DNA of 64,000 nucleotides from Desulfosarcina alkanivorans (GTDB taxonomy: Bacteria; Desulfobacterota; Desulfobacteria; Desulfobacterales; Desulfosarcinaceae), in contig NZ_AP021874.1 of assembly GCF_009688945.1 (NCBI RefSeq), forward strand, positions 2,170,001 to 2,234,000, given 5' to 3'. The first letter of the stretch is position 1; each line of letters opens with the position of its first letter. Shown piece after piece: positions 6,095-42,013 of the stretch. The notes below the pieces were generated by a model. It made no database searches. It saw only the letters and a program-made list of their open reading frames with translations, and had not been told where the DNA came from. Position numbers and translations under genes: made by a program.

Positions 6095-6149
6095 GGTATT
6101 ACCACAGCGTGACTTCGTTCTGCCACCCAAAGCATAGAGGTCAAACGCT

Positions 6150-8740: not shown

Positions 8741-8805
8741 GATAAACTCCCTTTATGCGAATGAAAAGACGCATGGAAACAAACCGCAAGGTGGATTTAT
8801 TATCA

Positions 8806-20860: not shown

Positions 20861-22414
20861 ATGAAATGGAATGTAGGATCCATCATCAGAAAAAGGGCCC
20901 AATTGACACCAGAAAAAAACGCCTTCATTTACGAAGGCGATCCGATTACTTATAAGCGTCTAAACGATGACACAAACCGTTTGGCCAACTATTTTCAATC
21001 GGTCGGACTGAAAAAGGGGGACCGTATTTCAGTCGACCTGCTGAACTGCACCGAGTTTCTGTCCATATACTTCGCCGCCGCCAAACTCGGCCTGGTCTTC
21101 GTCCCCCTGAACTGCCGAATGGTATCCGGAGAATTGGAATACCAACTCAACAATTGCGGATCGCGCCTGTTGATCTTCCATGACGCCTTCGGAAAGTTGA
21201 TCGAGCCGATCCACAATTCGGTACAAGTGGACCCAGATAAATTCCTCTGCCTGCATGGAAGCAACCCCAAAGATTTCGCTACCCCCGATTGGGCAGTGGA
21301 CTTCTGGGAGGCAATCGACGGACAGTCATCGACGGAACCCGAAGTCACCGAACTGATCGACCTGGACGACCCATTCGTAATTATCTATACGTCGGGTGTG
21401 ACCGGGCAACCCAAGGGAGCGGTGCTCTCCCACGGCCAAACCTTTTTCAAGTGTTTCCAGATCATGATGTATACGGACATGCGTGAGGACGACGTTTTTC
21501 TATCCCAACTGCCTCTTTTTCACTCCGGCGGTCTTTTCATCATCGCAACACCGGTATTGTGCCGCGGCGCTTCCTTTGTAATGCGCAAAAGCTTCGAACC
21601 CGATCAGTTCACCCAGGATATCAATACGTACAAGCCAACGGTGATTTTCGCCCTAACCACCATGTGGCGCTTTATCCTGAAAGAGGACGCTCTCGATTCG
21701 GTGGACGTCAGTAACGTCCGCATCGTCCTTGGTGGAGGAGAAAGGACGCCGTCCAGTCTGCTTCGCGATCTGGAAAGTTACGGACTGAATATGCAGCAGG
21801 GGTTCGGCCAGACGGAAAATTCGGCAATGATGATACTGCCCAAAAAGGACACTCTTCGCAAGGAAGGCTCCATCGGTTTGCCTGGGTTCTTTACCGATAT
21901 ATGGATTGAGGATGAAACCGGCAAGAAACTTCCACCTGGTGAAATCGGCGAAATTGTCGCCGCGGGTCCGACGGTGATGTCCGGATACTGGAACATGCCG
22001 GAAAAATCGGCGAGCACTATCGTCAACGGCCGCTTGTTTACCGGCGACCTGGGATACATGGATGAAGAGGGCTATTTTTACATTGTCGACCGCGCCAAGG
22101 ACATGTACCGGACCGGCGGTGAAAATGTCTACCCGGCGGAAATCGAAAAAATACTGGTCAATCACCCGGATATCGAAAATGCCGTAATCGTCGGTGTTCC
22201 CGATGATACGTGGGGCGAAACAGGCAAAGCATTTGTTGTCCCCGAAAAGGGAAAACCGGTTACCATCCAAGATATTCGGGAGTTTTTATCGGGTAAAGTC
22301 GCAAAATATAAGTTTCCGACCCATTTGGAAATCATCAGCACACTCCCCATGACCGCCACCGGCAAGATAAAGAAATCCGAACTGAAGGAAAAGTATCTGA
22401 TGAACACGACATAG
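20861..22414 (+). CDS. Acyl-CoA synthetase (AMP-forming), class I adenylate-forming
   Basis: 517 aa from the ATG at 20861 with AGGGAT upstream. Family motifs: YTSGVTGQPKGAVLSHG (P-loop-like A3, about residues 174-190), GFGQTE (A5), FTGDLGYMDEEGYFYIVDRAKDMYRTGGENVYPAEIE (A7-A8 hinge) and the C-terminal Lys in TATGKIKKSEL (A10). It converts a carboxylic acid, ATP and CoA to acyl-CoA. As the first gene of the operon it probably activates the growth substrate. The substrate cannot be read from sequence; the neighbouring B12 mutase suggests a branched or substituted acid. Confidence 0.9.
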   Translation: MKWNVGSIIRKRAQLTPEKNAFIYEGDPITYKRLNDDTNRLANYFQSVGLKKGDRISVDLLNCTEFLSIYFAAAKLGLVFVPLNCRMVSGELEYQLNNCGSRLLIFHDAFGKLIEPIHNSVQVDPDKFLCLHGSNPKDFATPDWAVDFWEAIDGQSSTEPEVTELIDLDDPFVIIYTSGVTGQPKGAVLSHGQTFFKCFQIMMYTDMREDDVFLSQLPLFHSGGLFIIATPVLCRGASFVMRKSFEPDQFTQDINTYKPTVIFALTTMWRFILKEDALDSVDVSNVRIVLGGGERTPSSLLRDLESYGLNMQQGFGQTENSAMMILPKKDTLRKEGSIGLPGFFTDIWIEDETGKKLPPGEIGEIVAAGPTVMSGYWNMPEKSASTIVNGRLFTGDLGYMDEEGYFYIVDRAKDMYRTGGENVYPAEIEKILVNHPDIENAVIVGVPDDTWGETGKAFVVPEKGKPVTIQDIREFLSGKVAKYKFPTHLEIISTLPMTATGKIKKSELKEKYLMNTT

Positions 22415-22552: not shown

Positions 22553-24292
22553 ATGGATAAACAAAAAAGTAAACTGGCGAAGAAGAAATGGCAAGAAACG
22601 ACCGTCTCTTCTCAACTTGAGAAATACGGCCTGAGTCGCTCCTGCACCCGGTTTTTCACGCCCGATGACATCAACGGCTTCGACTTTGAGGAAAAGGTCG
22701 GATTTCCCGGTCAGTACCCCTTCACTGCCGGCAATACCCCCCTTCCCCGCTGGCAGGCCTTTGCGAGCAAGCTGGCCAAGGCATCGGCGCGTCACGAATG
22801 GGGGGCCAGCAGTGCGGGAAAGTACGCAGGCTTCGGAACATCCGAGGATTATCGGGACTACCTGATCCGCATGCACACCATGGGCAGGAAAGGCGCGCCC
22901 AACATGGCCATGGACCTACCAACCCAATGTGGCTACGATTCCGACGATGCCTGGGCAGAGGGTGAGGTGGGACGGGTGGGCGTGGCCATCGACTCGTTGC
23001 GGGATTTCGAGGTGATATACGAGCCCTATAGCGGGAATATCGATCTGGACAAAATCGCCTCGAATTTCACCATCAACGCCCCCGCCGCCGTGATTATCGC
23101 CATGTACGCGGCACTTGCCGAGCAACGCGGCATCCCGTTGAAAAAATTGCGTGGCACGCCGCAAAACGATATCCTCAAGGAGTTCGTCGGTCGCGGTCTC
23201 TACATCTATCCACCGAGCCCCTCCCTGCGCCTTTTTCGGGACGCCCTCGCGTTTTGCACGAAGCACATGCCCCGCTTCAACATCACCAGTATCGGCGGTT
23301 ACCATATGCGTGAGGCGGGCGCTACGAGAAGACAGGATCTCGCATTTAGCATGGCCATCGGTGCGGCCTACCTTCAATCGGGGATCGACGCCGGGCTGGA
23401 CATCGATGCCTTCGCGCCGAACTTCACTTTTAACGCTTTCGGCGGGAGTATGGAGTTCTACAAGGAGATCGCCTTTCAACGCGCCGCCAGAAGAATGTGG
23501 GCCGGAATGCTCAGAAACCGTTTCGGCGCCAAAAACCCCAGAAGCATGTTGATCCGTCAGATTTCGACGGCCCACATCGGCTGCAGCAGCACACAGCTGC
23601 AGCGACCGCTGAACAACCTATCCCGCGCGATCATCGGCGGAATGGCCGCTGGCATGTCCGGCGGTATACCGGGGACATTTCCGCCCTATGACGAACCTTT
23701 GGGATTGGGCCACAGCCTCGAAGCGCAGCAACTTTCCCATGACGGTACAAGAATTCTCATATACGAGGCCAAGCTGGGTGAGGTCCTGGACCCGTGGGCC
23801 GGGTCGTATTTCATGGAGTCCTTGACCAACGACATGGAAAAAGCCGCATCGGAGGAGGTTGAAAAAATCGAAAAAATGGGTGGAGCGGTCGCCGCCATCG
23901 AAAACGGATACATGCAGAAAGCCGTCGCCCAAAGCAGTTATGAAAAACAAAAAAAGATCGAAAACCAGGAGGAATTCATCGTCGGCGTGAATTGCTTTAC
24001 CGGTGCCCATGAGATCGAGGTCAGTATCGACCGCAGTGTCGAGGAGTTATATTCCGCCGACCTGATGGCTACGGCAGAGGCTCGTCAGATCGAGAATCTC
24101 GCCCGATTAAAGAGGAACCGGAACAACAAGGAGGTCTGTCGTTGCCTGCGAAACCTGAAGAAAAATGCAAAGGACGAATCGAAGAATCTGATGCCGGATA
24201 TACTGGCCTGCGTAAAATGCTATGCGACCCTTCAGGAGATATGCGATCAACTCAGAGAGGTATTCGGAGAGGCTGAACCCGCCAAACTATAG
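22553..24292 (+). CDS. B12-dependent acyl-CoA mutase, large subunit (divergent methylmalonyl-CoA mutase-like)
   Basis: 579 aa from the ATG at 22553 (GAGGAA nine bases upstream); an earlier ATG at 22508 has no ribosome site. It is the TIM-barrel substrate domain without the cobalamin domain, which is the separate gene at 29606. GYHMREAGAT (about 249-258) carries the Tyr-His pair of the family, and Arg about 214 in EFVGRGLYIYPP sits where methylmalonyl-CoA mutase binds the carboxylate. Other segments diverge strongly: RHEWGASSAGKYAGFGT replaces the usual TMYxxRxWTxRQYAGF, STAHIGCSSTQLQRP replaces TQTGGxxLTAQQP, and MSGGIPGTFPPYDE replaces LGGTxSLHTNxxDE. The substrate is therefore probably not methylmalonyl-CoA. 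Confidence 0.88.
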   Translation: MDKQKSKLAKKKWQETTVSSQLEKYGLSRSCTRFFTPDDINGFDFEEKVGFPGQYPFTAGNTPLPRWQAFASKLAKASARHEWGASSAGKYAGFGTSEDYRDYLIRMHTMGRKGAPNMAMDLPTQCGYDSDDAWAEGEVGRVGVAIDSLRDFEVIYEPYSGNIDLDKIASNFTINAPAAVIIAMYAALAEQRGIPLKKLRGTPQNDILKEFVGRGLYIYPPSPSLRLFRDALAFCTKHMPRFNITSIGGYHMREAGATRRQDLAFSMAIGAAYLQSGIDAGLDIDAFAPNFTFNAFGGSMEFYKEIAFQRAARRMWAGMLRNRFGAKNPRSMLIRQISTAHIGCSSTQLQRPLNNLSRAIIGGMAAGMSGGIPGTFPPYDEPLGLGHSLEAQQLSHDGTRILIYEAKLGEVLDPWAGSYFMESLTNDMEKAASEEVEKIEKMGGAVAAIENGYMQKAVAQSSYEKQKKIENQEEFIVGVNCFTGAHEIEVSIDRSVEELYSADLMATAEARQIENLARLKRNRNNKEVCRCLRNLKKNAKDESKNLMPDILACVKCYATLQEICDQLREVFGEAEPAKL

Positions 24293-24360
24293 TCATGATG
24301 GACACCATCACTATTTCGGGACCGCCCGATGGCCGCGTAGCCGGATATAAGGAGGTTCAA

Positions 24361-24663
24361 GTGACCAATTTTGAAGCGCTGGTTTCAGGAGTTCTTCTTT
24401 TCAACGCGATTCCTCACCTTGTTCAGGGGATTTGCGGCAAGAGGCACATGACACCGTTCGGGAAAAGCTCCAGCCCTACGATCAATGTGGCCTGGGGTTG
24501 GGTCAACCTGTTGGCAGGGGGGGGCGTGGTTATCCATTCATCATCGGTGCCATGGACAGGCATCACTTATGCCTGCTTCTGCATGGGTGGGGGGCTCACA
24601 TCGTTTCTCTTGGCCCGTTTCTGGACCAATCCTGATGCGAGGCTGCCCTGGCAAAAGAAATAG
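24361..24663 (+). CDS. Small integral membrane protein
   Basis: 100 aa. The start is the GTG at 24361, which has a very good ribosome site (AAGGAGG five bases upstream). Three hydrophobic segments: FEALVSGVLLFNAIPHLVQG (about 3-22), INVAWGWVNLLAGGGVVI (about 43-60) and ITYACFCMGGGLTSFLLARF (about 69-88). The family is not one I know, but the same kind of small protein is seen in dehydrogenase and oxygenase clusters of many bacteria. Its place between the mutase large subunit and the MmgE/PrpD gene suggests a role in substrate transport or none in catalysis. Confidence 0.65.
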   Translation: MTNFEALVSGVLLFNAIPHLVQGICGKRHMTPFGKSSSPTINVAWGWVNLLAGGGVVIHSSSVPWTGITYACFCMGGGLTSFLLARFWTNPDARLPWQKK

Positions 24664-24770: not shown

Positions 24771-26123
24771 ATGAATCAAGCATCCGATGCAATGACCAAA
24801 GAATTGGCGCGGTTTATCGCGGAACTCGACACGAAAGAGATACCGGCGACCGTTTACGAACACGCCAAAGTCGCCTTTATGGACTGGATCTGTGTGACCC
24901 TGGCCGGCAAGGATGATCCCGCGGTGAAAAAACTGCTTAGTTACTCCGATACCATGGGAGGAAATCCACAAGCGACCATTTTGGGCCATGGGACAAAAAG
25001 CAGCCTCAGTCACGCAGCTCTCATCAACGGAACGGCCTCCCATGCACTCGATTATGACGATACACTTGAGGCTTTCCTGGGACATCCGTCTGTGACCATA
25101 TTCCCGTCGATTCTCGCCCTTGGAGAATGGACCGGCAAATCGGGGAAAGCCTTTTTGACCGCTTACATCACCGCACTGAAAGTGGGAGCCGCCATTGGCG
25201 CCTGCGGGGGTATGGACCACTACATGAGCGGTTGGCACGCCACCTCGACCCTTGGACATTTCGCCTCGGCTGCAGGATGTGCCAAATTGATGGGGTTGGA
25301 CGAAAAACAGACGGTAAATGCGCTGGGGATCGCAGGCACGCAGGCATCGGGATTAAAGCGCGTGTTCGGGACCATGTGCAAGCCTTTTCACGCCGGTCGT
25401 GCCTCCCAGGCGGGAATGCTTTCCGCCCTGCTGGCCGAGAATGGATTCTCCAGCGCCGAAGATATCCTCGAAGGAAGTCACGGTTTTTTCCAGGTACTGA
25501 AGGGGGAGGTGAACCACAAGGTGCTCGGCACGCTGGGAAAGACCTGGGACATCGAAAATCTGGCGCAGAAATACCATGCCTCCTGCCACGCCACCCATTC
25601 CCCCATAGAGGGTGCGCTTTCCATCGTGGCCGACAACAGTCTCGCCGTAGCGGATATCGCTTCCCTGCGGGTATTCTGTTCGCAATTGTCCCTGGACGCC
25701 GCCGGTAACCACCAACCGAAATCCGGCCTCGAGGGTAAGTTCAGTATTACCTATTGCCTTGCAAATGCACTCATCCGAAAACAGACCGGAATCGCGGCAT
25801 TTACCGACGCAAGGGTTAATGACCCGGAAATATTGATATTTATGGACAAGATCGATGTAATCCATACGGATGAGTTCAAGGGCCTGGAGGCGACAATAGA
25901 AATCGAGACGAATTCAGGGGCGGTACACGAGCAGACATTCAATATCTTGAAGGACATCCCGCCGCTCGAGGATAAACAGGCCAAGATAAGAACCAAATTC
26001 GACGATTTATGCACCCCTTTACTGGGAGCGGGGGGGGCGGAAAAACTGGCGGGTCTCATTGCCGCTCTTGACCAGGTCGAAAACATCAAATCAGTCATAG
26101 ACGCCACAAACGCCTCACTATGA
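24771..26123 (+). CDS. MmgE/PrpD-family protein
   Basis: 450 aa, normal length. The family signature ASHALDYDDTLEAFLGHPSVTIFPSILALGE (around residues 84-113) and GWHATSTLGHFASAAGCAKLMGL (about 154-176) are clear. Characterised members are 2-methylcitrate dehydratase, cis-aconitate decarboxylase and some hydrolases, all acting on free di- or tricarboxylates. In a CoA-ester operon a (de)hydratase or decarboxylase step on a carboxylated intermediate is conceivable, but the substrate is not known. The preceding ribosome site is AGGAGATAACCACCG. Confidence 0.85.
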   Translation: MNQASDAMTKELARFIAELDTKEIPATVYEHAKVAFMDWICVTLAGKDDPAVKKLLSYSDTMGGNPQATILGHGTKSSLSHAALINGTASHALDYDDTLEAFLGHPSVTIFPSILALGEWTGKSGKAFLTAYITALKVGAAIGACGGMDHYMSGWHATSTLGHFASAAGCAKLMGLDEKQTVNALGIAGTQASGLKRVFGTMCKPFHAGRASQAGMLSALLAENGFSSAEDILEGSHGFFQVLKGEVNHKVLGTLGKTWDIENLAQKYHASCHATHSPIEGALSIVADNSLAVADIASLRVFCSQLSLDAAGNHQPKSGLEGKFSITYCLANALIRKQTGIAAFTDARVNDPEILIFMDKIDVIHTDEFKGLEATIEIETNSGAVHEQTFNILKDIPPLEDKQAKIRTKFDDLCTPLLGAGGAEKLAGLIAALDQVENIKSVIDATNASL

Positions 26124-26205: not shown

Positions 26206-27402
26206 ATGATGACTGAAAATTGTGTTATCGTGAGCGCCAAGAGGACACCATTCGGGAAATACCTCGGATCTCTGTCACAGATGGAACCGCTGGACGTAGC
26301 CGTTCATGCAGCCAATTCCACACTGGACGCCGCCGGAACGGAGATCCGCGACAAGATCGATCAAATTTTCGTAGGCAATTGCATTCCAGGCGCCTTCGAA
26401 ACCGCCTCGGTCACCGGAAGACAAATCGGCCTGAAGCTCGGCCTCGATGTTTTCACCACCACCATCGACACGGCCTGCTGCTCCCCACTCTCCGCCCTTC
26501 GCATGGCGCTTTGGGGGCTACGCCTGGGTGAGATCGAGTCCGCGCTGGTGATCGGAATCGAGGCCATGAGCCGCACCCCTCACGTCAGCCGCCAGTTCCG
26601 TGAAGGCGTCCGGATCGGCGGGATCAATCTCCCCGATCCCATCTTTCCGATCTCCTATCCGGGGTATCACTCCGTGGCCGTGGATGCCTCCGACGGCGCC
26701 GAAAAATACAAGATCTCCAAACGCATGCTAGACACCTTCGCCATGGGGTCACACCTGAAATGGGCCCAGGCAATGAAGGAGAACAAGTTCGGTGACGAGA
26801 TCTCTCCCATAATGGTGAAAAAAGGCCGCCAGAAATACCTGTTCACGACCGACGAAATGCCAAGACCTCAGGGATCGGTCGCCGGTATCGAAATGCTGCC
26901 GCCCGTATTTGGCGCCAAGACCACCACGGCCGGAAACGCGCCCGGACTTAATGACGGGTCATCGGCCATGGTCGTGATGACCGAAAAAAGGGCCAATGCT
27001 CTCGGATTGACCATTTTGGGGACGATTGTCGATCAGGTGGGAGATACCGATATGCCCTACGGCATCTCATGGATTCCGGCGAGCGCCATCAAGAAGATTC
27101 TTTCCAGGACAGAAAACACCATCGATGACATAGATCTCATTGAGATCAATGAAGCCTTTGCCGCCATGCCATTGGTCAGCACGCGGATCCTGTCCGAAAA
27201 CGACGACAAAAAATGGCATGCGCTGATTGAAAAAACCAATGTCAACGGCGGAGCCATCGCCATCGGACACCCGGTCGGCGCATCCGGACTCAGAATCACG
27301 ATGTCCATGATGTACGAGTTGAGACGAAGGGGCGGCGGACTTGGCGTGGCGGCCATCTGTGGCGGATTGACCCAAGGTGAGGCGATCTTGGTTCGCGTTT
27401 GA
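26206..27402 (+). CDS. Thiolase (acetyl-CoA acyltransferase) 1
   Basis: 398 aa. The ribosome site GAGGAGAAGAC precedes ATG ATG. The nucleophilic Cys is in TIDTACCSPLSALR (about 88-90), the catalytic His in GGAIAIGHPVGASG (about 350) and the second Cys in AICGGLTQG (about 385). It would cleave a 3-ketoacyl-CoA with CoA to give acetyl-CoA (or propionyl-CoA if 2-methylated). It directly precedes the FadB-like gene, so together they form a beta-oxidation pair analogous to FadA/FadB. Confidence 0.92.
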   Translation: MMTENCVIVSAKRTPFGKYLGSLSQMEPLDVAVHAANSTLDAAGTEIRDKIDQIFVGNCIPGAFETASVTGRQIGLKLGLDVFTTTIDTACCSPLSALRMALWGLRLGEIESALVIGIEAMSRTPHVSRQFREGVRIGGINLPDPIFPISYPGYHSVAVDASDGAEKYKISKRMLDTFAMGSHLKWAQAMKENKFGDEISPIMVKKGRQKYLFTTDEMPRPQGSVAGIEMLPPVFGAKTTTAGNAPGLNDGSSAMVVMTEKRANALGLTILGTIVDQVGDTDMPYGISWIPASAIKKILSRTENTIDDIDLIEINEAFAAMPLVSTRILSENDDKKWHALIEKTNVNGGAIAIGHPVGASGLRITMSMMYELRRRGGGLGVAAICGGLTQGEAILVRV

Positions 27403-27451: not shown

Positions 27452-29545
27452 ATGCCGGAAGTAAAATACCAGATTGATTCCGATACGAAAATCGCGACGT
27501 TCGTGATAGATAGCGCCGGCCCGGTCAACACCATCGGCGAACAGTTCATCAAGGATCTTGCCGCGGCCACGAAAATGGCCAACCGGGACAACGTTAACGG
27601 GGTGATACTTCTGTCGGGCAAGAAGAAAAGCTTCCTCGACGGTGCCAACCTGATGGAGATCATGAAAGACGGATCTCCATTTAATCTAAAGTACATCGTG
27701 CTGAAACTCCAGGATTCACTGTCGGGACTGGCGAAAAGCCCCTTTCCGGTGGCCGCGGTGCTGCCTGGCCAAACGGCCCTGGGCGGTGGTTTCGAGACCC
27801 TGCTCTGGTGCTGCGATAAAATTTTCGCCTCTCCTGGAACCAAACTGGGCCTGCCCGAAGTGAACATCGGTCTCTTTCCGGCCGGGGGGGGGCCTGAAAC
27901 GCTCCGGAGAATCGTCGGTGTCGAAAAGGCCGTGGATATCGTCATGAAGGGACAGGTGCTTCCCGCGGAAGCCTATGTCGACACCGGGCTCGTGGCCATG
28001 GTTCCCGCCGGGGAAGGCATGGCGGAAGCCCAAAAGTGGCTGTCGGCGAACGCGGGCCTCGTGAACCGCAATTACACGGACAACTGGAAGGACCCCGGCG
28101 GATTGAGCGTTGCGGAACAAAAGGAAGTGATCGCAAAAGCGAGAAAGAAATTCTGCGCGTGTGCCGAAAAACCCTACCTAAGGGCCGCCATCGACGCCAT
28201 GGCCGATGGGATCGGACTTCCCGTCGAGGAAGCGTCGGCCAAGGAAGTGGACTACTTCGCACCGCTCATCGCGGATCAAAACGTGAAAAACAAGATCGAT
28301 TTCTTCTTCCTGATGAACAGCATCGCCCCGAAGCTCACCCGCGCGAACACCAAAAAAGCGGTGCCCGCGCCAGAAGTCGCCATCATCGGCGCCGGATTGA
28401 TGGGGCAGGGCATCGCTCAGGTGTGCGCTGACAAAGGCATCAATGTTGTTCTGATCGATGTGGACCAACAAACGGCCCAGGCCGCGAAGGAGAAAATCGA
28501 AAAAGGGTTGGAGCCCCTCGTGCAAAAAGGGAAGTGGTCCGCCCAGCGAAGGGACACGCTTCTTGAAAAAATCCGGGTGTCCGACGACTACAACGAACTG
28601 AAAAACGTATCCCTGGTTATCGAAGCCGTATTCGAGGAAATCGGCCTGAAACGAAAAATCCTAAACAAGGTACAGGCAATCAACCCGGACATCGTCTTCG
28701 CATCCAATACGTCAACCATGCAAATGCAGGAAATCGCCGCCGAATCAAGTCGCCCCGAACAAGTCGTCGGAATGCACTACTTCTCTCCAGTCCCCCTGAT
28801 GCCGCTTCTCGAGGTTATTCAGGGTCCGCAGACCTCCGAAGCCGCGTTGGCGACGGCCCTGCTTTCCGGACAACAGCAGGGCAAGACCTGCGTGGTCGTG
28901 GGCGATGGTCCCGGTTTCTACACCAGCAGAACCTTCGGCGTCTATGTTATGACCGGGTTCTGCCTGGCGGAATTGGGCCTGGATCCGTGGCACGTCGACC
29001 GCTTGGCGCTGGAAGCCGGCTTTCCTCAGGGGCCGCTGAACATTTACGGCACTGCGGGCGGAAACGTCATCTACCATGCAGGCCTGAACATGCAGGAAAA
29101 ACGTCCGGAACTGATGGTAATGCCAAACACCTTGATCAGGATGTACGAGGCCGGGTATGTCGGTGCCGGCAAACCCTGCTTTTACAAGAACGGCATGGAA
29201 CCCGACGAAACGGCGCGGCAGTTCATCGTTTCCGACGGCGAACGGCCGACGCCGGACGATGAAGAGGCAAAGGCGATGCTCCTGCTCGCCATGGCCAACC
29301 AGGCGTTCCACTGTCTCGATGAGGGCGTCGTGAAAAGCTACTATAGCATGGACCTTGCGGCGGTACTCGGCATCGGATTCCCCGATTGCTGGCACGGTCC
29401 CGCCCGCTACGTGAGCAACATTGGCGTGAAGGCGACCCTGAGCCGGTTGCAGGCGCTTTATGAAAAATACACGATTCCTTTCTTCAAACCTGCGGATGAA
29501 TTTGAACGACTGGCCGCCTGCGGCGTGGACAAGGGACTTGTATAA
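27452..29545 (+). CDS. Enoyl-CoA hydratase / 3-hydroxyacyl-CoA dehydrogenase fusion (FadB-like)
   Basis: 697 aa. The N-terminal crotonase domain (about 1-190) keeps both catalytic glutamates: GGGFETLL and LPEVNIGLFPAGGG. A linker leads to the Rossmann domain at about 309 (VAIIGAGLMGQGIAQV), followed by NTSTMQMQEIA and HYFSPVPLMPLLEV around the dehydrogenase active-site His, and two C-terminal 3HCDH helical domains. It hydrates enoyl-CoA and oxidises the product with NAD+. The gene is 50 bp after thiolase 1 with ribosome site AAAGGAGAAAGAC. Confidence 0.93.
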   Translation: MPEVKYQIDSDTKIATFVIDSAGPVNTIGEQFIKDLAAATKMANRDNVNGVILLSGKKKSFLDGANLMEIMKDGSPFNLKYIVLKLQDSLSGLAKSPFPVAAVLPGQTALGGGFETLLWCCDKIFASPGTKLGLPEVNIGLFPAGGGPETLRRIVGVEKAVDIVMKGQVLPAEAYVDTGLVAMVPAGEGMAEAQKWLSANAGLVNRNYTDNWKDPGGLSVAEQKEVIAKARKKFCACAEKPYLRAAIDAMADGIGLPVEEASAKEVDYFAPLIADQNVKNKIDFFFLMNSIAPKLTRANTKKAVPAPEVAIIGAGLMGQGIAQVCADKGINVVLIDVDQQTAQAAKEKIEKGLEPLVQKGKWSAQRRDTLLEKIRVSDDYNELKNVSLVIEAVFEEIGLKRKILNKVQAINPDIVFASNTSTMQMQEIAAESSRPEQVVGMHYFSPVPLMPLLEVIQGPQTSEAALATALLSGQQQGKTCVVVGDGPGFYTSRTFGVYVMTGFCLAELGLDPWHVDRLALEAGFPQGPLNIYGTAGGNVIYHAGLNMQEKRPELMVMPNTLIRMYEAGYVGAGKPCFYKNGMEPDETARQFIVSDGERPTPDDEEAKAMLLLAMANQAFHCLDEGVVKSYYSMDLAAVLGIGFPDCWHGPARYVSNIGVKATLSRLQALYEKYTIPFFKPADEFERLAACGVDKGLV

Positions 29546-29605: not shown

Positions 29606-30004
29606 ATGGATGAGAAAAAGAAAATCAGAGTCCTGATCGCAAAACCCGGGCTGGACGGCCATGAGCGGGGCGCCCGGGTCATCGCCTACGGCCTGAGAGA
29701 CCTCGGATTCGAGGTCATCTACACGGGGCTGCGGCAAACCACCGACCAGATCGTCACGGCGGCAATCCAGGAGGATGTGAACGTGGTCGGGCTGTCGATT
29801 CTTTCCGGTGCCCATATCTCCCTGACCCGAAAGGTTCTCGATCAACTGAGGGAACGCGATGCCGGTGATGTGATGGTCATCATCGGCGGAATCGTACCGG
29901 AAAAAGACCATGCGGAATTATCGGAAATGGGCGTTGCCGGCATTTTCACAGCCGGAAGCGCCATCAAGGACGTGGCCGCGTTCATCCGGTCGAAGCTCGC
30001 CTGA
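29606..30004 (+). CDS. Cobalamin-binding small subunit of the acyl-CoA mutase
   Basis: 132 aa, essentially a single B12-binding domain. The DxHxxG motif is in LDGHERGARV (Asp 17, His 19, Gly 22), where His replaces the dimethylbenzimidazole ligand of cobalt; downstream come GLSILSGAH and IIGGIVP, which line the nucleotide tail pocket. It should pair with the large subunit at 22553, giving a two-subunit mutase of the same layout as isobutyryl-CoA or 2-hydroxyisobutyryl-CoA mutase. It is separated from the large subunit by four genes, which is unusual since the two are mostly adjacent. Confidence 0.93.
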   Translation: MDEKKKIRVLIAKPGLDGHERGARVIAYGLRDLGFEVIYTGLRQTTDQIVTAAIQEDVNVVGLSILSGAHISLTRKVLDQLRERDAGDVMVIIGGIVPEKDHAELSEMGVAGIFTAGSAIKDVAAFIRSKLA

Positions 30005-30033: not shown

Positions 30034-30984
30034 ATGAAATCGAATCGTCTTTCAAAACTCATAGGCATTGACTACCCGCTGTTCCTCGGTCCGATGCGCC
30101 TGATCACACTGGGGGAGATGGCCGCCGCCGTTTCAAACAGCGGTGGATTCGGCCAAATCGCGGCTTCCGGCCTCTCGCCGGACCGCCTCCGAGAAGAGAT
30201 CGACAAAGCACACCGCCGGACGGACCGGCCTTTCGGGGTAAACATCCCGATCTACAGAAAAAACGCTATCGACCAACTGGAGGTCTGCACGCAATGCGGA
30301 ATCCGCACGATCACCACATCGGCGGGCAATCCGACCAGAATCATCGAACTGCTCCGGAACTCCGGAGTCAAGGTGCTGCACAAGGTTTCCTCGGTGGAAA
30401 TGGCCCTGAAGGCGGAGTCCGCCGGCGTCGATGCCGTCATCGCCACAGGTCACGAGGCCGGCGGCCACGTGGGACGGGATGGCGCCACGACCTTCTGTCT
30501 GGTACCCATGCTTGTCGATGCCTTGCAAATTCCCGTGATCGCCGCCGGTGGTATCGCTGACGCCCGGGGACTCGTGGCAGCGTTCGCTTTCGGTGCTGAA
30601 GGCGTGGAGGTGGGGACGCGTTTCGTCGCGACGGATAAAGCGCCGGTTCCGGATTTTTTTAAGGAGCTTCTCATTATGGCGCGTAGCCAATCGACCACCC
30701 TTCTCGGGAAAAACGCCATGCCCATTCGAGTGTTGAAGAACAAGGCCGCAGTGTCAATCCTGAATCCTGTGAAAAGTGAGGAAGATCGTCAGATCCAGGG
30801 TGACGCCGCGGACAGACAATACATTCAATCAGGGGGAGATGCGGACTCGGCGATCATGCCGGCCGGTCAGATCGCCGGTCTGATTCAAAATGTTAAAGAC
30901 ATTGGTGCCGTCTTCCCTGAAATGATCGAGGCGGCCCATACCATTTCGGAAAGGGTCTTCAAGAACTTTCAACGGGAGAGATAG
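30034..30984 (+). CDS. Nitronate monooxygenase/FabK-like FMN protein (2-nitropropane dioxygenase family)
   Basis: 316 aa TIM barrel. FMN-site features: FLGPMRLITLGEMAAAVSNSGGFGQI at the N-terminus, GHEAGGHVG (about 147-155, with the family's catalytic His) and IPVIAAGGIADARG plus GAEGVEVGTRF for the phosphate. Annotated members are nitronate monooxygenases, but FabK and polyketide enoyl reductases share the fold. In an anaerobe, and inside a CoA-ester operon, an enoyl-CoA reductase or an isomerising role is more likely than an oxygenase. The stop and the next ATG are adjacent, so expression is coupled to the crotonase gene. Confidence 0.8.
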   Translation: MKSNRLSKLIGIDYPLFLGPMRLITLGEMAAAVSNSGGFGQIAASGLSPDRLREEIDKAHRRTDRPFGVNIPIYRKNAIDQLEVCTQCGIRTITTSAGNPTRIIELLRNSGVKVLHKVSSVEMALKAESAGVDAVIATGHEAGGHVGRDGATTFCLVPMLVDALQIPVIAAGGIADARGLVAAFAFGAEGVEVGTRFVATDKAPVPDFFKELLIMARSQSTTLLGKNAMPIRVLKNKAAVSILNPVKSEEDRQIQGDAADRQYIQSGGDADSAIMPAGQIAGLIQNVKDIGAVFPEMIEAAHTISERVFKNFQRER

Positions 30985-31776
30985 ATGGGGTGGGAATACG
31001 TTCTATGTGAAAAGAAGGACTCAATCGCGACCATAACCCTCAACCGGCCGGAAAAGTACAACGCCTTCGGTGGCAGAATGAGGCAAGAGCTCTTGGAAGC
31101 AGTCGAGGATTCCTGTTCGGACAAGGAGGTTCGGGTGATCGTTATCACCGGCGCGGGCAAGGCCTTTTGCGCGGGCGGTGATGTGGATGAATTCGTTTCC
31201 GGAAAAACCCAGGCACTGGCCGATACGGTATCCAACGAAAGACACGCCATGTCCAAGATCGTTTTGGCCATCAATTCCGTGGAAAAGCCGGTCATCGCAG
31301 CGGTCAACGGCGTCGCCGCAGGCGGCGGCTGCAATCTGGCACTCTCCTGCGACATCCGGATCGCCAGCGAAAAAGCACGTTTCGGCCAGGTCTTTACCCG
31401 CCGGGGAGCCCATCCCGACTGGGGAGGTATTCATTTCTTGCCCAGGTTGGTAGGTTACGCCAAGGCGGCCGAGCTCATTTTCAGCGGTGAAGTTATCGAT
31501 GCCCAAGAGGCCCTGAAGCTCGGAATGATCAATCGGCTGGTTCCCCATGATCAGCTCGGACAGGCGACAGATGAACTCGCTGGAAAAATCGCCGGCAACG
31601 CGCCAATCCCCATCGCTTTCGCAAAAAGAGGCCTCCAGAATTTTCTGAAAATGGATTTACCCCAGGCCTTGGACTACGAGTCCTACGTTCTGGATGTCTG
31701 CCTGAAAAGCGATGACTTCATGGAAGGGTTCAAGGCTTTTATGGAAAAGAGGGAACCGACGTTTAAAGGGAAATAG
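30985..31776 (+). CDS. Crotonase-superfamily protein, probably an isomerase and not a hydratase
   Basis: 263 aa. GKAFCAGGDVDEF and VNGVAAGGGCNLALSCDIRIASE form the CoA-ester oxyanion hole. Both glutamates of enoyl-CoA hydratase are missing: GGGCE is GGGCN (Asn about 117) and the second position is hydrophobic. An Asp at about 145 in GAHPDWGG matches the catalytic Asp of PaaG-like isomerases. It therefore probably shifts a double bond or opens a strained CoA ester. The start codon directly follows the NMO-like gene, and MeaB follows 9 bp downstream. Confidence 0.88.
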   Translation: MGWEYVLCEKKDSIATITLNRPEKYNAFGGRMRQELLEAVEDSCSDKEVRVIVITGAGKAFCAGGDVDEFVSGKTQALADTVSNERHAMSKIVLAINSVEKPVIAAVNGVAAGGGCNLALSCDIRIASEKARFGQVFTRRGAHPDWGGIHFLPRLVGYAKAAELIFSGEVIDAQEALKLGMINRLVPHDQLGQATDELAGKIAGNAPIPIAFAKRGLQNFLKMDLPQALDYESYVLDVCLKSDDFMEGFKAFMEKREPTFKGK

Positions 31777-31785: not shown

Positions 31786-32727
31786 ATGAAAATGGACTGG
31801 AAACAGCTAATCGAAGAGATGCAAAATGGATCGGTACGCGCCCTTGCAAGGTTGATCACAAGGGTCGAAAACCGGGATTCCGGGTGGATCGAGGCCATGC
31901 AAAGGATCTATCCGTATACCGGTCGCGCCCGAATCATCGGCATTACCGGGTCCCCCGGTGCCGGCAAGAGCACCCTCACGGACCGCCTGGCCCGCATCAT
32001 GGCTGACGAATCACGCCGGGTGGGAATTATCGCCGTCGATCCATCCAGTCCATTTTCAGGGGGTGCCCTGTTGGGGGATCGCTTGCGGATGAATCAAGTG
32101 ACCGCCAGCAACGATATTTTCTTTCGTTCCATGGCTACCCGTGGCGCCCTTGGCGGACTATGCGTCGCAGCAAGGGATGTAGTCAAAATCATGGACGCCT
32201 TCGGAATGGACACGATTCTCATCGAAACCGTGGGGGTCGGTCAAGATGAGGTGGATGTGGTCAAAACGGCCGATATGGTCTCGGTCGTCTGCGTCCCGGG
32301 AATGGGCGACGGCGTTCAGGCGATCAAGGCCGGAATAATGGAGATCGCTGACATATTCATCATCAACAAGGCCGACCATGAAGGATCGGATCAAGCAGCG
32401 GCCGACATCCGCGCGATGCTGGAACTCGCGGCCGACGAACATGCAAAGGAAATTCCCGTGGAAAAAACCGTCGCCACGACGGGTGAGGGCATCCCAAAAG
32501 TCGCCGACATACTGATGAATGGACGCGGGCTACGTGATACCGAAACCGATCGACGCGAGAAGAAAATCAGAGATGAAATATCCGGTCTACTGGAAAAGGA
32601 AGTCGCCCGTCGTTTGGAAAGACGGCATGCCGAAAGCCACGAAATAGAAAACGCCGTCCGGAAAATCCTCGCGCGAGAACTGGATCCGTACACTTTCGTA
32701 AAGCAAATGTTGGATCGTTTACTCTAG
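31786..32727 (+). CDS. meaB: MeaB/ArgK-type GTPase chaperone of the B12 mutase
   Basis: 313 aa. Walker A GSPGAGKSTL (about 51-60), IAVDPSSPFSGGALLGDRLRM (switch region typical of MeaB), ETVGVGQDEVDV and NKADHEG (base-specificity NKxD). MeaB loads and protects the cobalamin cofactor of acyl-CoA mutases, so its presence confirms that the mutase genes at 22553 and 29606 work as one enzyme. It is the last gene of operon 1. Its TAG stop and that of the convergent regulator share the palindrome CTAG at 32724-32727, so no terminator fits between them. Confidence 0.95.
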   Translation: MKMDWKQLIEEMQNGSVRALARLITRVENRDSGWIEAMQRIYPYTGRARIIGITGSPGAGKSTLTDRLARIMADESRRVGIIAVDPSSPFSGGALLGDRLRMNQVTASNDIFFRSMATRGALGGLCVAARDVVKIMDAFGMDTILIETVGVGQDEVDVVKTADMVSVVCVPGMGDGVQAIKAGIMEIADIFIINKADHEGSDQAAADIRAMLELAADEHAKEIPVEKTVATTGEGIPKVADILMNGRGLRDTETDRREKKIRDEISGLLEKEVARRLERRHAESHEIENAVRKILARELDPYTFVKQMLDRLL

Positions 32728-34289
32728 CGTTTCTTACTACTATTTTTTTTAACCTCCCGCCCAAAGGGAATACCCAGCTTTTTCATTCGTTTTCGCAAGG
32801 TGGATGGGTGAATGGCAAGTAATTTGGCAGCCCCCTTCTCTCCCTCAATCTGACCGTTACATTGCTTGAGTACTTTTCGGATGTAGATAGACATGACCGC
32901 ATCAAGGGGCAACACGACCTTGTCTTCTTCGACAACATGTGATTCACTGCCCGTCTGGCCATCCATTACCGAAGAGAGGATGTCCCGAAAAGTCAGTGTG
33001 CCTTTCTTGCAGAGAATCAGATCACGCTCCACGGCGTTTTCCAGTTCACGTACATTTCCCGGCCATGGATAACGCAGCAGCATATCTAAGGTGCCGGTTT
33101 CGACACGCGGCATGATCGACCGTTTCATCTCCCTGGATTTCTTCTGTATGAAATGGGATAACAATGCCGGAATATCCTGCCGTCGCTTTCGTAGAGGAGG
33201 GATGGTAATCGGAAAAACCCGCAACCGGTAGTACAAGTCTTCCCGAAATCCGCCATCGGCCACCATTTTTTCTAAATTCCGGTGTGTTGCCGCAAGGACT
33301 CGTATATCCACGGGAATCGTTTCGATGCCCCCAACACGCTCAATTTCCTTCTCCTGCAAGACGCGAAGAAGCCTGACTTGCGCCTCTGGCGACAGTTCTG
33401 CGATCTCGTCCAGAAAGATCGTCCCGCCGTCTGCTCGTTCGAACCGGCCGCGTTTACGTGATACGGCACCGGTAAACGCACCTTTCTCATGCCCGAACAA
33501 CTCGCTGTCCATCAGCGTAGCCGGCATAGCGCCACAATTCACGCGGATGAAGGGGCCGTTACATCTCAGCGAAAGCTTATGAATCGCGTTGGCGATCACT
33601 TCCTTGCCCACCCCGGTTTCTCCCATCAACAGAACGGGACTGTTGAGCGCCGCAACCTGATTTACCAACTCCATCACTGCTTTCAATCCGAGATCGCCGC
33701 CGACCACTTCGTCCCCGGCGATGTGGCGCAACTCTTCTTGAAGATAACGATTATCGTCCTCCAACATTTCGCGCAACACTTGAAGCTCCCTAAACCGTAT
33801 GCAGTTTGCCAGGGCAATGGCAAAGGGTTCATTCAAAATGGCAAGCAATTTCTCATGATGGTGATTGAATTTGATGTTCGGCTCGCAAAAAACGGAAACC
33901 GTCCCCACAAATTTTCCCTCGAGAGCCAGGTCCAGGAGCAACCCGGACAAGTGGGGCACCCCCAATTGACGGGCAACCGGACCCGCCACCGCATCGTCTC
34001 CCAAACGATTCACCTGTTTGGTTCGCAGGGAACGTTGATCTTCGACCTGTCGCCGGCCTCTTGGAGACAAGGGCGTGCGCAAGGCCATGGTCTGTGCGTC
34101 GTCGATCGTGGCCATGGCCACTGTCTCCACAATGCCGAGTTCACGGTCATAGATATGAAAACAAAAATGTGAGGCCGGCAGGAATCGGCATAAGTACTCA
34201 AGGCACCGCTGCATGGCAATCTCAATTTCGAGGCTGCTGCAGATCCGCAAAGCCGCCTCACGAAAAAAATCGCTTTCGTTAGCGTTCAT
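32724..34289 (-). CDS. GAF-domain sigma-54-dependent transcriptional activator
   Basis: 521 aa, built as NorR/FhlA-type activators: an N-terminal GAF sensor domain (about 10-165), AAA+ with Walker A GETGVGKEV (about 217), GAFTGA (about 275) and Walker B GTIFLDEIAELS, and a C-terminal HTH (GAAKLLAIHPSTLRKRMKKLGI). There is no receiver domain, so it should sense a small molecule, plausibly an acyl-CoA or the free acid. It sits between two catabolic operons, each starting with a sigma-54-type promoter (20763 and 34591), and is most likely the activator of both. It is divergent from operon 2. Confidence 0.93.
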   Translation of the reverse strand: MNANESDFFREAALRICSSLEIEIAMQRCLEYLCRFLPASHFCFHIYDRELGIVETVAMATIDDAQTMALRTPLSPRGRRQVEDQRSLRTKQVNRLGDDAVAGPVARQLGVPHLSGLLLDLALEGKFVGTVSVFCEPNIKFNHHHEKLLAILNEPFAIALANCIRFRELQVLREMLEDDNRYLQEELRHIAGDEVVGGDLGLKAVMELVNQVAALNSPVLLMGETGVGKEVIANAIHKLSLRCNGPFIRVNCGAMPATLMDSELFGHEKGAFTGAVSRKRGRFERADGGTIFLDEIAELSPEAQVRLLRVLQEKEIERVGGIETIPVDIRVLAATHRNLEKMVADGGFREDLYYRLRVFPITIPPLRKRRQDIPALLSHFIQKKSREMKRSIMPRVETGTLDMLLRYPWPGNVRELENAVERDLILCKKGTLTFRDILSSVMDGQTGSESHVVEEDKVVLPLDAVMSIYIRKVLKQCNGQIEGEKGAAKLLAIHPSTLRKRMKKLGIPFGREVKKNSSKKR

Positions 34290-34606: not shown

Positions 34607-34649
34607 TCTTTAAATGATTTCTGTTAAACCTACCAACCAGGAGAAAATA

Positions 34650-35903
34650 ATGAGAGATGTCGTCATTATCAGTACTTGCCGGACGGCCATCGGAGCCTTC
34701 GGCGGCACGTTAAAAAGCCTTAACGGACCTTTTCTGGCCAGCGTTGCCATGCAGGAGGCGATTCGACGCGCCGGTATCGATCCATCCATAATTGACGACG
34801 TTCGATTCGGCTGCTGCCTCGAGCACCATGACAATCTGAATGTGGCCCGTGTTGGAGCCCTCATGGCCGGTATTCCCAATACGGTCCCGGCCGTGACAAT
34901 GAATCGGGCCTGCATTTCCGGAATGGAAGCCACCATCTCCGGCATGGCCATGATTCAGGCCGGCATGGCCGACGTAATTCTCGCGGGCGGTGTGGAGCAT
35001 ATGTCCGGTGCACCGTACACTGTTCCCGGTGCGCGCTGGGGTTGCCGTCTTCAGGATAATACCTTTGTGGATGCCATGATTCACGCGCTGCACGCCGGAT
35101 CCCACCTGCTTCCGCTGGAAGCCGACGCCCCGGTGGACACGACCCAGGCGCCGGCCAGTCATTTTGTCGGAAAACCCTACATCATGGGCCACACCGCCGA
35201 GTTTGTCGCCCAGAAAATGGGTATCAGCCGGGAAGAGATGGACGAAGTGGCCCTGCGCAGCCAGAACAACGCCGAACGGGCAACCCTGGATGGCACCTTT
35301 GCCGACGAAATCGTTCCTGTACCGGTCCCCCGCCGCAAAAAGGAACCACTGATCTTCGACAAGGATGAACACTTCAGGCCGGGCCTGACAATGGATCAGT
35401 TGCGCGAGCTGCCACCCGCCTTCGTCCCGAAAACCGGAACCGTTACCGCCGGAAACGCCAGCGGCATCAACGACGGTGCCGCCGCCATGCTGCTCATGTC
35501 TGCCGATAAGGCCAAGGAACTGGGCCTTCCCCCGATGGCGAGAATTCACGCCACCGGCAAGGGAGCCTGCCATCCCGCCCTCATGGGTTTGTCACCGGTC
35601 CCGGCTGTCAATGACCTCACCGACCGAAGCGGCTTGAAAGTGGCCGATTTCGATCTGGTAGAAGTAAATGAAGCCTTCGCCGCGCAATATATCGGTTGCG
35701 AGCGTGATTTAGGGTTGAATCGCGAGATCACCAACGTCAACGGCTCTGGTATCGGGTTGGGCCATCCGGTCGGGGCCACCGGCTGCCGCATCATGGTTAC
35801 CTTGATCCATGCAATGAAAAAAAGAGGAAACAGTTTAGGTCTTGCCACCTTGTGCGGCGGCGGGGGCGTCTCCATGGCCTGCGCACTGGAAATGATCACC
35901 TGA
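34650..35903 (+). CDS. Thiolase (acetyl-CoA acetyltransferase) 2
   Basis: 417 aa from the ATG at 34650 (AGGAG upstream). The nucleophilic Cys lies in NRACISGMEATISG (about 88), the catalytic His in GSGIGLGHPVGATG and the second Cys in ATLCGGGGVSMA. It is about 30-40 % like thiolase 1 by eye, so the two are not a recent duplication and could serve different chain lengths or opposite directions. First gene of operon 2, followed 70 bp later by the acyl-CoA dehydrogenase. Confidence 0.92.
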   Translation: MRDVVIISTCRTAIGAFGGTLKSLNGPFLASVAMQEAIRRAGIDPSIIDDVRFGCCLEHHDNLNVARVGALMAGIPNTVPAVTMNRACISGMEATISGMAMIQAGMADVILAGGVEHMSGAPYTVPGARWGCRLQDNTFVDAMIHALHAGSHLLPLEADAPVDTTQAPASHFVGKPYIMGHTAEFVAQKMGISREEMDEVALRSQNNAERATLDGTFADEIVPVPVPRRKKEPLIFDKDEHFRPGLTMDQLRELPPAFVPKTGTVTAGNASGINDGAAAMLLMSADKAKELGLPPMARIHATGKGACHPALMGLSPVPAVNDLTDRSGLKVADFDLVEVNEAFAAQYIGCERDLGLNREITNVNGSGIGLGHPVGATGCRIMVTLIHAMKKRGNSLGLATLCGGGGVSMACALEMIT

Positions 35904-35973
35904 TCATCGGGCAACGACGACGCATATTCGCGACAGCAATTTCAATCCATTCAACAGGAACCGGAGGAGAAAT

Positions 35974-37131
35974 ATGGACTTTGAACTCAGCCGAGAGCAG
36001 AAAGAGATCCAGAAAGCCGTTAGAGAATTTGTAAAGGGCGAATTTAAAAAGGAAATTATCGAGGAACTCGTTGAGAACCACGACTATCCCAAAGCAATTT
36101 GGAAAAAAGCGGCGGAGCTCGGTTTCATCGGCATACACTACCCGGAGAAGTATTCGGGAATGGGACTCGGATGCCTTGAGAACATCATCGTCGCCGAAGA
36201 GCTGGCCCGTGGAGACAGCACGGTCGGTACGTGCTTGCTCATTGCCGACTTCGCATCTGAAATCATTCTGCACCACGGCAGCGATGAACAAAAATCCAAG
36301 TGGCTTCCCAAGGTCGCCGAAGGCGAGTGTCTTTCCTGTGGCGCCTTCACGGAACCGGACCACGGGTCTGATATTACTACGGTCAACACCACCGCCATCA
36401 AGGACGGTAACGACTGGCTCATTAACGGAACCAAAATGTTTATTACCAACAGCGGCCCCCTGGCTGGCTTTTATTGCGTGCTGTGCCTGACGGACCCGGA
36501 TGCCGCTCCTTCATACAGGGGGCTCAGCCTCATTCTCGTGGAAGCGGACAATCCGGGAGTCTCTACCCAGGACGTAGGAAAAAAGATGGGAATTACGATC
36601 TCCTACACCGCCGAGGTGATCTTTAAGGATGTCAGGGTCCCCCTGGACAATCTGATCGGCAAAGCGAACAAGGGGTTTTACCAATTGCTGGAATTTTTCG
36701 ATGAAAGCCGCATCCTCGTTGCCGCCCAGGCGCTGGGTACGGCCCAGGGAGCCTTCGACAGGGCGCTTGACTACATCAAACAGCGGGAACAGTTCGGTAA
36801 GAAAATCGCTCAGTTTCAGGTCAACCAGCACAAGATCGCCGACATGGCCACAAAAATCGAATGTGCGCGGATGATCACTTACAAAGCCGCATGGAACTTC
36901 GATCAGGGTCGCATCGATCCCAAGTTGACCTCCATGGCCAAAATGTATGCCGCGCGTACGGCAGTGGAAGTTGCCGACGAGGCGATCCAGCTGATGGGTG
37001 GCTACGGCTACATGCAAGAATACGAGGTCGAGCGGTTTTATCGGGATGCCAAAATTACCGAAATTTATGAAGGAACCAAGGAGATTCAGAAGAACACCAT
37101 CGCCGGCGCTATTCTGGGAAAGATGAAATGA
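35974..37131 (+). CDS. Acyl-CoA dehydrogenase (short-chain type)
   Basis: 385 aa, standard length. [12 protein letters not shown] (about 126-137) and [12 protein letters not shown] form the FAD and substrate contacts; [40 protein letters not shown] carries the conserved C-terminus, with the catalytic Glu in IYEGTKEIQ. It makes 2-enoyl-CoA and passes electrons to the ETF encoded downstream. The start has GGAGGAGAAAT as ribosome site. Its stop overlaps the ATG of the next gene (ATGA). Confidence 0.94.
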
Positions 37132-37994
37132 AAGAAAAAAAAATGGACATCAAGAAAATATGCGTTTTAGGCGCAGGATTGATGGGGAATGGCATCGCAC
37201 AGGTTTGTGCCCAAACCGGATATCAGGTAACCCTGCGGGACATCGAACAGCGTTTTGTCGACAACGGAATGCAGACGATAACAAAGAACCTCGCCCGGGA
37301 TGTAAAAAAGGGTCGAAAAACCCAAGCGGAGATGGATGCCGTGCTGGGCAGGATCACACCGACGGTCGATCTTGAAACGGCCGCCGCGGACGCGGATATC
37401 GCAGTGGAAGTGATCGTCGAGGTGCTCGGCATCAAACAACGACTGTTCAGGGATCTGGAAGCGATTGTCCCGGATCGCTGCCTTTTTTTCACCAACACCT
37501 CCGGGATCAGCATCACCGAGATCGCCGCCTCGACCGCTCGGGCCAAAAAAGTCATCGGGACCCATTTCTTCAATCCGGTCCCGGTCATGCGTCTTCTCGA
37601 AATCATCAAGGGGCATGAAACCGACGACGAAACCCTCGCCACCGCAAAAGCGTGGGGCGAAACACTCGGCAAGGAGGTGATCATCGTCAACGAGGCGCCG
37701 GCGTTCACCGTTAACCGCATCCTTTGCCCAACCATCAATGAGGCTTTTTACGTTTTGGAGTCCGGAATCGCCAGTGCAGAGGATATCGACAAGGGAATGG
37801 TACTGGGATGCAATCATCCCATCGGCCCCCTTGCCCTCGCCGACATGGTCGGTCTCGACACCCTTCTGAAAGTCATGGACAATCTGCATGCCGAGTTGGG
37901 AGATAAATACCGACCGTCTCCCTTGCTCAGAAAAATGGTGCGTGCTGGCAATTTCGGCAGAAAAACAGGCAGAGGGGTTTATGAATACGATTAA
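37128..37994 (+). CDS. 3-hydroxyacyl-CoA (3-hydroxybutyryl-CoA) dehydrogenase
   Basis: 288 aa. The Rossmann motif [20 protein letters not shown] (about residues 12-31) binds NAD(H); [11 protein letters not shown] and [16 protein letters not shown] contain the catalytic Ser/Asn and His; one C-terminal 3HCDH domain follows ([18 protein letters not shown]). The length fits the short Hbd family, in contrast to the FadB-like fusion in operon 1. The ATG overlaps the preceding stop; a second ATG at 37143 is possible. Confidence 0.93.
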
Positions 37995-38021
37995 TTTTAT
38001 TTGCAGAAGAGGACGATTCCT

Positions 38022-40091: not shown

Positions 40092-40147
40092 TTTAGTGGA
40101 TATGATTTGTGGAGCGGTCTCACTTCAGAGAAGCTATATTTGGCAAT

Positions 40148-40172
40148 AACCATCCTGGTTAAGGTTTTTTTT
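40148..40172 (+). terminator. Weak terminator-like hairpin before etfB
   Basis: AACCA-TCC-TGGTT followed by AAGG and eight T. The 5-bp stem and 3-base loop are weak, so it may attenuate transcription between the EMO-like gene and etfBA and not end it. Confidence 0.4.
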
Positions 40173-40252
40173 GCCATTGGCACCTCCGGCTCTGGAATGA
40201 GATCGCTCCTCCAATTTGCGATTCACTCCGAACATCAATAAGGAGAAAAGAG

Positions 40253-42009: not shown

Positions 42010-42013
42010 GTAA

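Follow-up and report, generated by a model that had tools for sequence, protein, structure and literature searches.

Which reaction does the divergent mutase encoded at positions 22553–24292 of the window, a 64,000-nucleotide stretch of the Desulfosarcina alkanivorans genome, catalyze? A preliminary description of this DNA had proposed a B12-dependent acyl-CoA mutase outside the methylmalonyl-CoA mutase (Mcm) clade that would open an unusual carbon-skeleton route. The gene product (579 aa) matched the PF01642 profile with an E-value of 1.1e-137 and 460.2 bits (curated cut-off, 22.1). Its frame is open from 22508 (594 aa); the likely start is 22553, as previously preferred, because GAGGA lies directly 5′ of it, nothing alike stands ahead of the ATG at 22508, and several relatives use a matching start. 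The protein lacks a B12 domain; a separate 132-aa B12-binding protein is encoded at 29606–30004. Three PF01642 proteins turned up in a family search of this genome: an ordinary Mcm, one of the IcmF type, and the window mutase. The latter scored 402.8 bits versus 876 with the Mcm equivalog model PRK09426, which also spans the B12 domain that is a separate protein here, and its best solved match was Hcm (4r3u). An AlphaFold model of the mutase had a mean pLDDT of 74.7, with values below 50 at residues 63–72, 77–107, and 354–360 and poor confidence in the changed segments described below; fold searches with this model confirmed the mutase fold and returned nothing further (VIA Z 36–39 to catalytic-chain Mcm entries). 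Its sequence identifies the product as part of a B12-dependent acyl-CoA mutase, of which it forms the large subunit. Since the CoA-entry segment is strongly changed and was modeled with low confidence, a CoA substrate is assigned from the ligase of the operon and from knowledge of the family.

The mutase gene is the second of ten genes on one strand, at the end of which a regulator gene lies on the opposite strand:

20861–22414, + strand: AMP-forming acyl-CoA ligase, proposed to activate the alkylsuccinate (PF00501; PRK06187 470.3 bits, just under the cut-off of 476)
22553–24292, + strand: mutase large (substrate-binding) subunit
24295–24663, + strand: conserved small protein, 122 aa (no Pfam or NCBIfam match)
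24771–26123, + strand: MmgE/PrpD-family protein, proposed substituted-succinate epimerase (PF03972)
26206–27402, + strand: thiolase (TIGR01930, over the cut-off)
27452–29545, + strand: FadJ-like hydratase/3-hydroxyacyl-CoA dehydrogenase (PF02737, PF00378)
29606–30004, + strand: small B12-binding mutase subunit, 132 aa (TIGR00640, 161.9 bits)
30034–30984, + strand: FabK/nitronate monooxygenase-type flavoprotein (PF03060; TIGR03151 below the cut-off)
30985–31776, + strand: enoyl-CoA hydratase/isomerase family protein (PF00378), accompanying the mutase in several loci
31786–32727, + strand: MeaB-type GTPase, mutase maturation chaperone (TIGR00750, 304.3 bits; cut-off, 240.75)
32724–34289, − strand: sigma-54-type regulator at the operon end (recognized by eye in the translation)

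The ligase was searched from 20855, two codons ahead of its likely ATG at 20861. The nearest solved structures to the small subunit were the B12 mutase 2yxb and the Hcm small subunit 4r3u_C. The 122-aa protein recurred beside the mutase operon in seven loci (L016, L017, L018, L021, L026, L109, and L110), and blastp matches to the regulator were likewise found beside the mutase in other loci. The profile matches in the window bear out the ligase, small subunit, MeaB, and beta-oxidation enzymes that had been ascribed to the mutase.

Three further gene groups in the window were noted. The region 1411–6130 (− strand) encodes an ATPase weakly similar to QueC (below the cut-off) and, as recognized by eye, a sigma-54 response regulator and a PAS histidine kinase; in L017, L022, and L026, relatives of these genes directly precede the same mutase operon and are perhaps its regulators. 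At 6150–9327 (− strand) are genes for a MoxR-type ATPase, a 173-aa protein, and a product that resembles VWA proteins by eye but gave no Pfam match, all perhaps activation chaperones; similar genes occur near masD or the mutase elsewhere (VWA and MoxR by Pfam, the 173-aa protein by eye). Past the operon, at 34614–47773 (+ strand), we recognized by eye a thiolase, an acyl-CoA dehydrogenase, a 3-hydroxybutyryl-CoA dehydrogenase, an Fe-S oxidoreductase, EtfBA, and Rnf-like proteins, of which only the dehydrogenase was profile-scanned. These genes likely provide the electron route of beta-oxidation.

The position of the protein among known mutases was examined by phylogeny. From 87 mutase matches, 8 partial or duplicate ORFs, sequences shorter than 500 aa, and sequences identical over residues 60–400 were dropped; the 64 left, plus a fragment of P. 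shermanii Mcm, made up the 65 rows (485 columns) used for the tree, from which a Dehalococcoidia fragment (57%) was kept out. A single branch, supported at 100/100, set 45 rows apart from the rest; its stem measures 0.99 changes per column, and the clade so defined was united in all 200 bootstrap trees counted. Three Mcm rows, Ecm, Hcm, Pcm, IcmF, and one Streptomyces row fell outside it, thus separating the window mutase from the Mcm clade, as had been proposed. The Ecm row is an unannotated record (L121) named from a crotonyl-CoA carboxylase/reductase-like ORF recognized by eye alongside, and the row labeled ICMlike_Streptomyces carries Tyr/Arg and is no proven Icm, a stand-alone Icm large subunit being absent from the tree. 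The order among the known mutases is unsure owing to long branches (Pcm, Ecm, and IcmF), as are the neighbors of the clade, because a long-branch group (L010 and its kin) meets the clade stem, where the tool issued a warning. The clade consists of a 27-row subclade, which holds the window mutase, and an 18-row subclade. Its named members come from Desulfobacterales, Syntrophobacterales, Syntrophorhabdus, and one SAR324 MAG. A plasmid search found no clade member; among the best 60 of 418 records listed, the top-ranked row had 40.7% identity, and all 418 were below 60%. The other 44 clade sequences are 55–79% identical to the window mutase and carry the same marks again and again, indicating that the divergence is not due to chance. 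By sequence comparison, this mutase is a real and well-supported separate type.

The survey also brought out some neighboring oddities. L010, L011, L013, and L014 form a second divergent mutase group (100/100 in the tree) that keeps Tyr89, Arg207, and His244 and has Asn114, Gly164, Asn287, Leu328, Gly330, and Cys366. Tandem pairs of clade mutases stand beside a single small subunit at L139:9579-13075 and L144:8461-12119, and in L142 a radical-SAM protein, with PDZ and DUF512 matches just below the cut-off, adjoins the small subunit. Eight genomes of family f75 each gave 17–32 loose first-look mutase candidates in 1.9–3.1 Mb.

We then considered the genomic association of the mutase with masD, whose product is the glycyl radical enzyme responsible for joining alkanes to fumarate. 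The D. alkanivorans genome encodes five PFL-like glycyl radical enzymes, one of which, at C1:2132862-2135351, is MasD, scoring 1453 bits against solved MasD (PDB 9o8u) versus 540 against benzylsuccinate synthase. This gene lies 57 kb upstream of the mutase gene and is not adjacent to it, which counts against an alkylsuccinyl-CoA substrate. Its region encodes an activase, acyl-CoA dehydrogenases, a TRAP carrier, a family-III CoA-transferase, and an MmdA-like carboxyltransferase. Past the clade mutase, MeaB, and a PrpD-like protein, the SAR324 MAG contig (L027) encodes a glycyl radical activase plus an 837-aa enzyme; the latter scored 1243 bits against 9o8u versus 495 against benzylsuccinate synthase and is 68.7% identical to MasD of D. 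alkanivorans. Here, mutase and masD are 3.5 kb apart. The distance was 0.4–6.7 kb in 11 genomes from six families, typically in the order regulator, small subunit, mutase, MeaB, PrpD-like, activase, and masD. Linkage to, or a shared genome with, MasD/AssA, as expected of an alkylsuccinyl-CoA mutase, was seen both in D. alkanivorans and in these genomes. Among 37 stretches examined, 13 hold both genes, masD being cut by the contig end in L140 and L113.

Co-occurrence was assessed in 395 genomes of the phylum (E ≤ 1e-150 for the mutase and ≤ 1e-200 for MasD). The mutase was present in 36 and MasD in 19, all of which were among the 36 (Fisher 7.5e-23, or 8.2e-22 without the D. alkanivorans genome, uncorrected for kinship), and MasD occurred in 10 of the 13 mutase-bearing families. 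Copy numbers are lower bounds, because at most three mutase and two masD candidates were scored per genome. The mutase was at least 57% identical in 17 of the 19 MasD genomes; the other two (G061 and G421) had 47% matches. The 36 include the best matches of G061, G421, G129, and G216 (47–52%), which were not placed on the tree, and exclude the masD-less G208, whose 59% identical fragment misses the mutase threshold. Among 14 genomes with named clade loci, nine held a MasD-like match of at least 45% (L016, L018, L020, L022, L026, L027, L029, and fragments in L017 and L025), and no such match was found in five, some of them incomplete (L019, L021, L023, L028, and L030; for L030, none at E ≤ 1e-100). 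Outside this count are L024, judged to be the same MAG as L022, and L032 (a 57% fragment), whose genome, like those of the outside-clade loci L031 and L033, gave no MasD match. No masD match at E ≤ 1e-50 was found in G010, a genome of the same genus (86% complete) that holds the nearest relative of the window mutase (a 90% identical fragment).

Gene linkage to masD places the mutase in a known pathway, that of anaerobic alkane degradation by fumarate addition, and the unusual route first envisaged gives way to it. The mutase is most likely an AdoCbl-dependent (1-methylalkyl)succinyl-CoA mutase acting on the CoA ester of the alkane–fumarate adduct. We infer the substrate, the direction of the reaction, and the role of each partner as follows. 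MasD would join the alkane to fumarate, the ligase would convert the adduct to its CoA thioester, and the MmgE/PrpD-type protein would set the C2 configuration. The two-subunit mutase, its cofactor loaded and guarded by MeaB, would then convert (1-methylalkyl)succinyl-CoA to (2-methylalkyl)malonyl-CoA, the CO-SCoA group migrating in the radical 1,2-shift typical of such enzymes while Arg207 holds the free carboxylate. The product would be decarboxylated by the MmdA-like carboxyltransferase encoded near masD and degraded through beta-oxidation by the thiolase, the FadJ-like protein, the hydratases, and the acyl-CoA dehydrogenases.

The clade might instead act on 2-substituted succinyl-CoAs in general, the substrate of this operon being another substituted succinate, either imported or made by another fumarate-adding enzyme. 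masD was absent from 16 of the 36 mutase genomes, some of them incomplete, which favors this alternative over an alkylsuccinyl-CoA substrate; a looser search of the 17 genomes lacking a MasD match gave one MasD fragment (G188, 68%) and otherwise matches of at most 37% or none. Frequent neighbors of the mutase in those stretches without masD that we read were carriers of the TRAP or (by eye) MFS kind, hydratases, PrpD-like proteins, and family-III CoA-transferases, and D. alkanivorans itself has four further PFL-type glycyl radical enzymes. However, the window mutase sits in the mostly masD-linked subclade, and the MAGs sharing its layout (L016, L018, and L026) hold a masD 83–84% identical to that of D. 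alkanivorans; we thus regard this alternative as unlikely for the present operon. The masD-less members reflect either incomplete genomes or a clade that serves 2-substituted succinates more widely. They weigh most heavily against a narrow reading, and given their number, the substrate range of the clade may be wider than the products of MasD.

Next, we compared the active-site residues with those of P. shermanii Mcm, whose numbering is used and whose published structures define the residue roles. Tyr89, Arg207, His244, Gln197, and Glu370 were kept in all 45 clade members (Tyr89, Arg207, and His244 are Y106, R229, and H266 in the 594-aa numbering, R229 being 214 in the preliminary numbering), so that the Tyr-His pair and the carboxylate-type Arg noted at the outset are indeed invariant. 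Together with the B12-binding partner at 29606–30004, the invariant His244, Gln197, and Glu370 agree with membership of the PF01642 superfamily. Position 195 is Thr in 43 members and Ser in 2. Fold, B12 domain, and MeaB are likewise shared with Mcm. Unlike Mcm, the clade carries the B12 domain on its own subunit and has Asn in place of Ser114 and of Ser164 and Pro-Pro in place of Asn366-Ser367 in all 45 members. Arg87 is replaced by Gly (39), Ser (3), or Ala (3); Phe287 by Ala (36), Gly (7), or Val (2); His328 by Thr in 37 members and other residues elsewhere; and Gln330 by His in 43, although the alignment of the last two positions is less certain because of a two-residue insertion in that region. 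Arg283 gives no clean mark, being retained in 18 of 45, and some marks are shared with other mutases (Asn114 also occurs in four of the 11 other divergent rows and Pro366 in the Ecm row). As the preliminary description had stated, three segments differ: the CoA-entry segment before Tyr89 reads AGN..GKYAGF instead of RGxYPTMYxxRxWTxRQYAGF, and in the cofactor-facing segments, RLSFFW is replaced by NFTFNAF and THSQTSGW..NS by QISTAHIGC..PP. The stretch ahead of Tyr89 is longer in the aligned clade sequences, and the usual motif is missing from it. No clade row (0 of 45) has a PTMY-like string, but its exact spelling is also absent from 7 of 9 reference rows, making the alignment better evidence than the string count.

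The residues at positions 89 and 207 bear on the substrate. They are Ile/Gln in Hcm, Phe/Gln in the IcmF type of D. alkanivorans, Leu/Asn in Xaut_5043, which we take to be a pivalyl-CoA mutase (Pcm), and Tyr/Arg in Ecm. Compared with enzymes for other substrates, the Tyr and Arg of the clade most likely indicate a substrate with a free carboxylate, as in succinyl-CoA, and are the carboxylate-binding pair expected of an alkylsuccinyl-CoA mutase; replacement of Phe287 and its neighbors would make room for a side chain. Of the two kinds of substrate suggested earlier, an alkyl-branched dicarboxylic acid agrees with these residues, whereas a quaternary acid, with pivalyl- or isobutyryl-CoA, does not. 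Ecm (L121) resembles the clade in Tyr89, Arg207, and Pro at 366 but differs in its 661-aa frame, 32% identity, and retention of Ser114, Ser164, and Phe287; its B12 domain is presumably fused.

A second, simple methylmalonyl-CoA mutase, recycling propionyl-CoA to fumarate, would have the same catalytic residues, and genes at such places have been labeled methylmalonyl-CoA mutase in the literature (PMC7180275). Yet the genome already has an ordinary Mcm, the placement outside the Mcm clade has 100/100 support, and residues around CoA and the cofactor that are conserved in the Mcm references are absent; we reject this possibility as very improbable. We also reject, with near certainty, a monocarboxylic substrate such as isobutyryl-, 2-hydroxyisobutyryl-, or pivalyl-CoA. 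The split subunits and the best solved match recall Hcm, which likewise has an AMP-binding protein and MeaB in its operon and is 34–36% identical, but all 45 members have Tyr/Arg where the monocarboxylic references do not.

The PrpD-like protein raised the question of the epimerase. A PrpD-like gene (at least 57% identity over the best segment) was present in 12 of the 13 stretches with both mutase and masD, L146 being the exception. The nearest solved structure to the 24771–26123 product was IDS-epimerase (2hp0; 2.3e-55), which epimerizes iminodisuccinate, itself a substituted succinate. A profile of the family matched IDS-epimerase at 2e-86, with Bacillus subtilis MmgE/IRG1 nearly as close (1.1e-79), followed by cis-aconitate decarboxylase (4.6e-59) and 2-methylcitrate dehydratase (1.1e-20). 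The catalytic bases of IDS-epimerase are presumably the Tyr and Lys aligned with Y151 and K204, which are invariant (18 of 18); the aligned MmgE/IRG1 carries both too. The PrpD-like protein could thus be the postulated alkylsuccinate epimerase, a candidacy that we consider credible but tentative. A 2-methylcitrate dehydratase is unlikely, as the corresponding models gave at most 47 bits against cut-offs of at least 458 and this enzyme was the weakest of the solved relatives. As another possible epimerase, we considered the family-III CoA-transferase encoded near masD (L070:13595-14824), since such proteins include alpha-methylacyl-CoA racemase; its nearest solved relative was succinate-HMG CoA-transferase (1e-73), with racemases next (1e-61). 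Passages of PMC4561516 and PMC3653055 postulate that the alkylsuccinate is epimerized by an enzyme, probably once the CoA thioester has formed, and an excerpt of PMC6776118 reports the proposed racemase as missing in draft MAGs of alkane-degrading Smithella.

This gene set is already known. In Desulfoglaeba alkanexedens cluster 1 (mcmLS), compared here by its published gene list, the mutase large and small subunits, LAO/AO (MeaB), and MmgE/PrpD lie beside the alkylsuccinate synthase genes assABCDE; that mutase was published as methylmalonyl-CoA mutase, with no clade or active-site analysis, and MmgE/PrpD was given no function (PMC7180275). The separate clade, the remodeled active site, and the epimerase proposal are new. 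Fumarate addition is described in part of PMC4703814 as the most widely distributed anaerobic route of alkane activation. Rearrangement of (1-methylalkyl)succinate has long been proposed (Wilkes 2002, as cited in passages of PMC3653055 and PMC4561516), and excerpts of PMC10811727, PMC9576796, PMC7701123, PMC5606693, PMC6776118, and PMC10766756 assign it to "methylmalonyl-CoA mutase". Our literature search, with most subscription literature outside its scope, found no characterized alkylsuccinyl-CoA mutase and no statement of this mutase as a separate type.

The second stage of the pathway, epimerization and skeleton rearrangement, has so far been inferred from metabolites, with the rearrangement assigned by name only to methylmalonyl-CoA mutase. 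Both mutase subunits, MeaB, and the PrpD-type protein might form a dedicated module for C2 inversion of a 2-substituted succinate followed by skeleton rearrangement. The PrpD-like protein would then be the alkylsuccinate epimerase that the pathway still lacks, and sediment bacteria without masD would use the module on imported substituted succinates; we offer this wider scheme with some reserve. If an alkylsuccinyl-CoA mutase is indeed encoded here, it would constitute a mutase type of its own, recognizable by its sequence marks, a gene would be suggested for the unassigned epimerase, and the rearrangement and epimerization steps would become directly testable. The marks of the mutase could then serve as a second gene marker of alkane degraders besides masD/assA.
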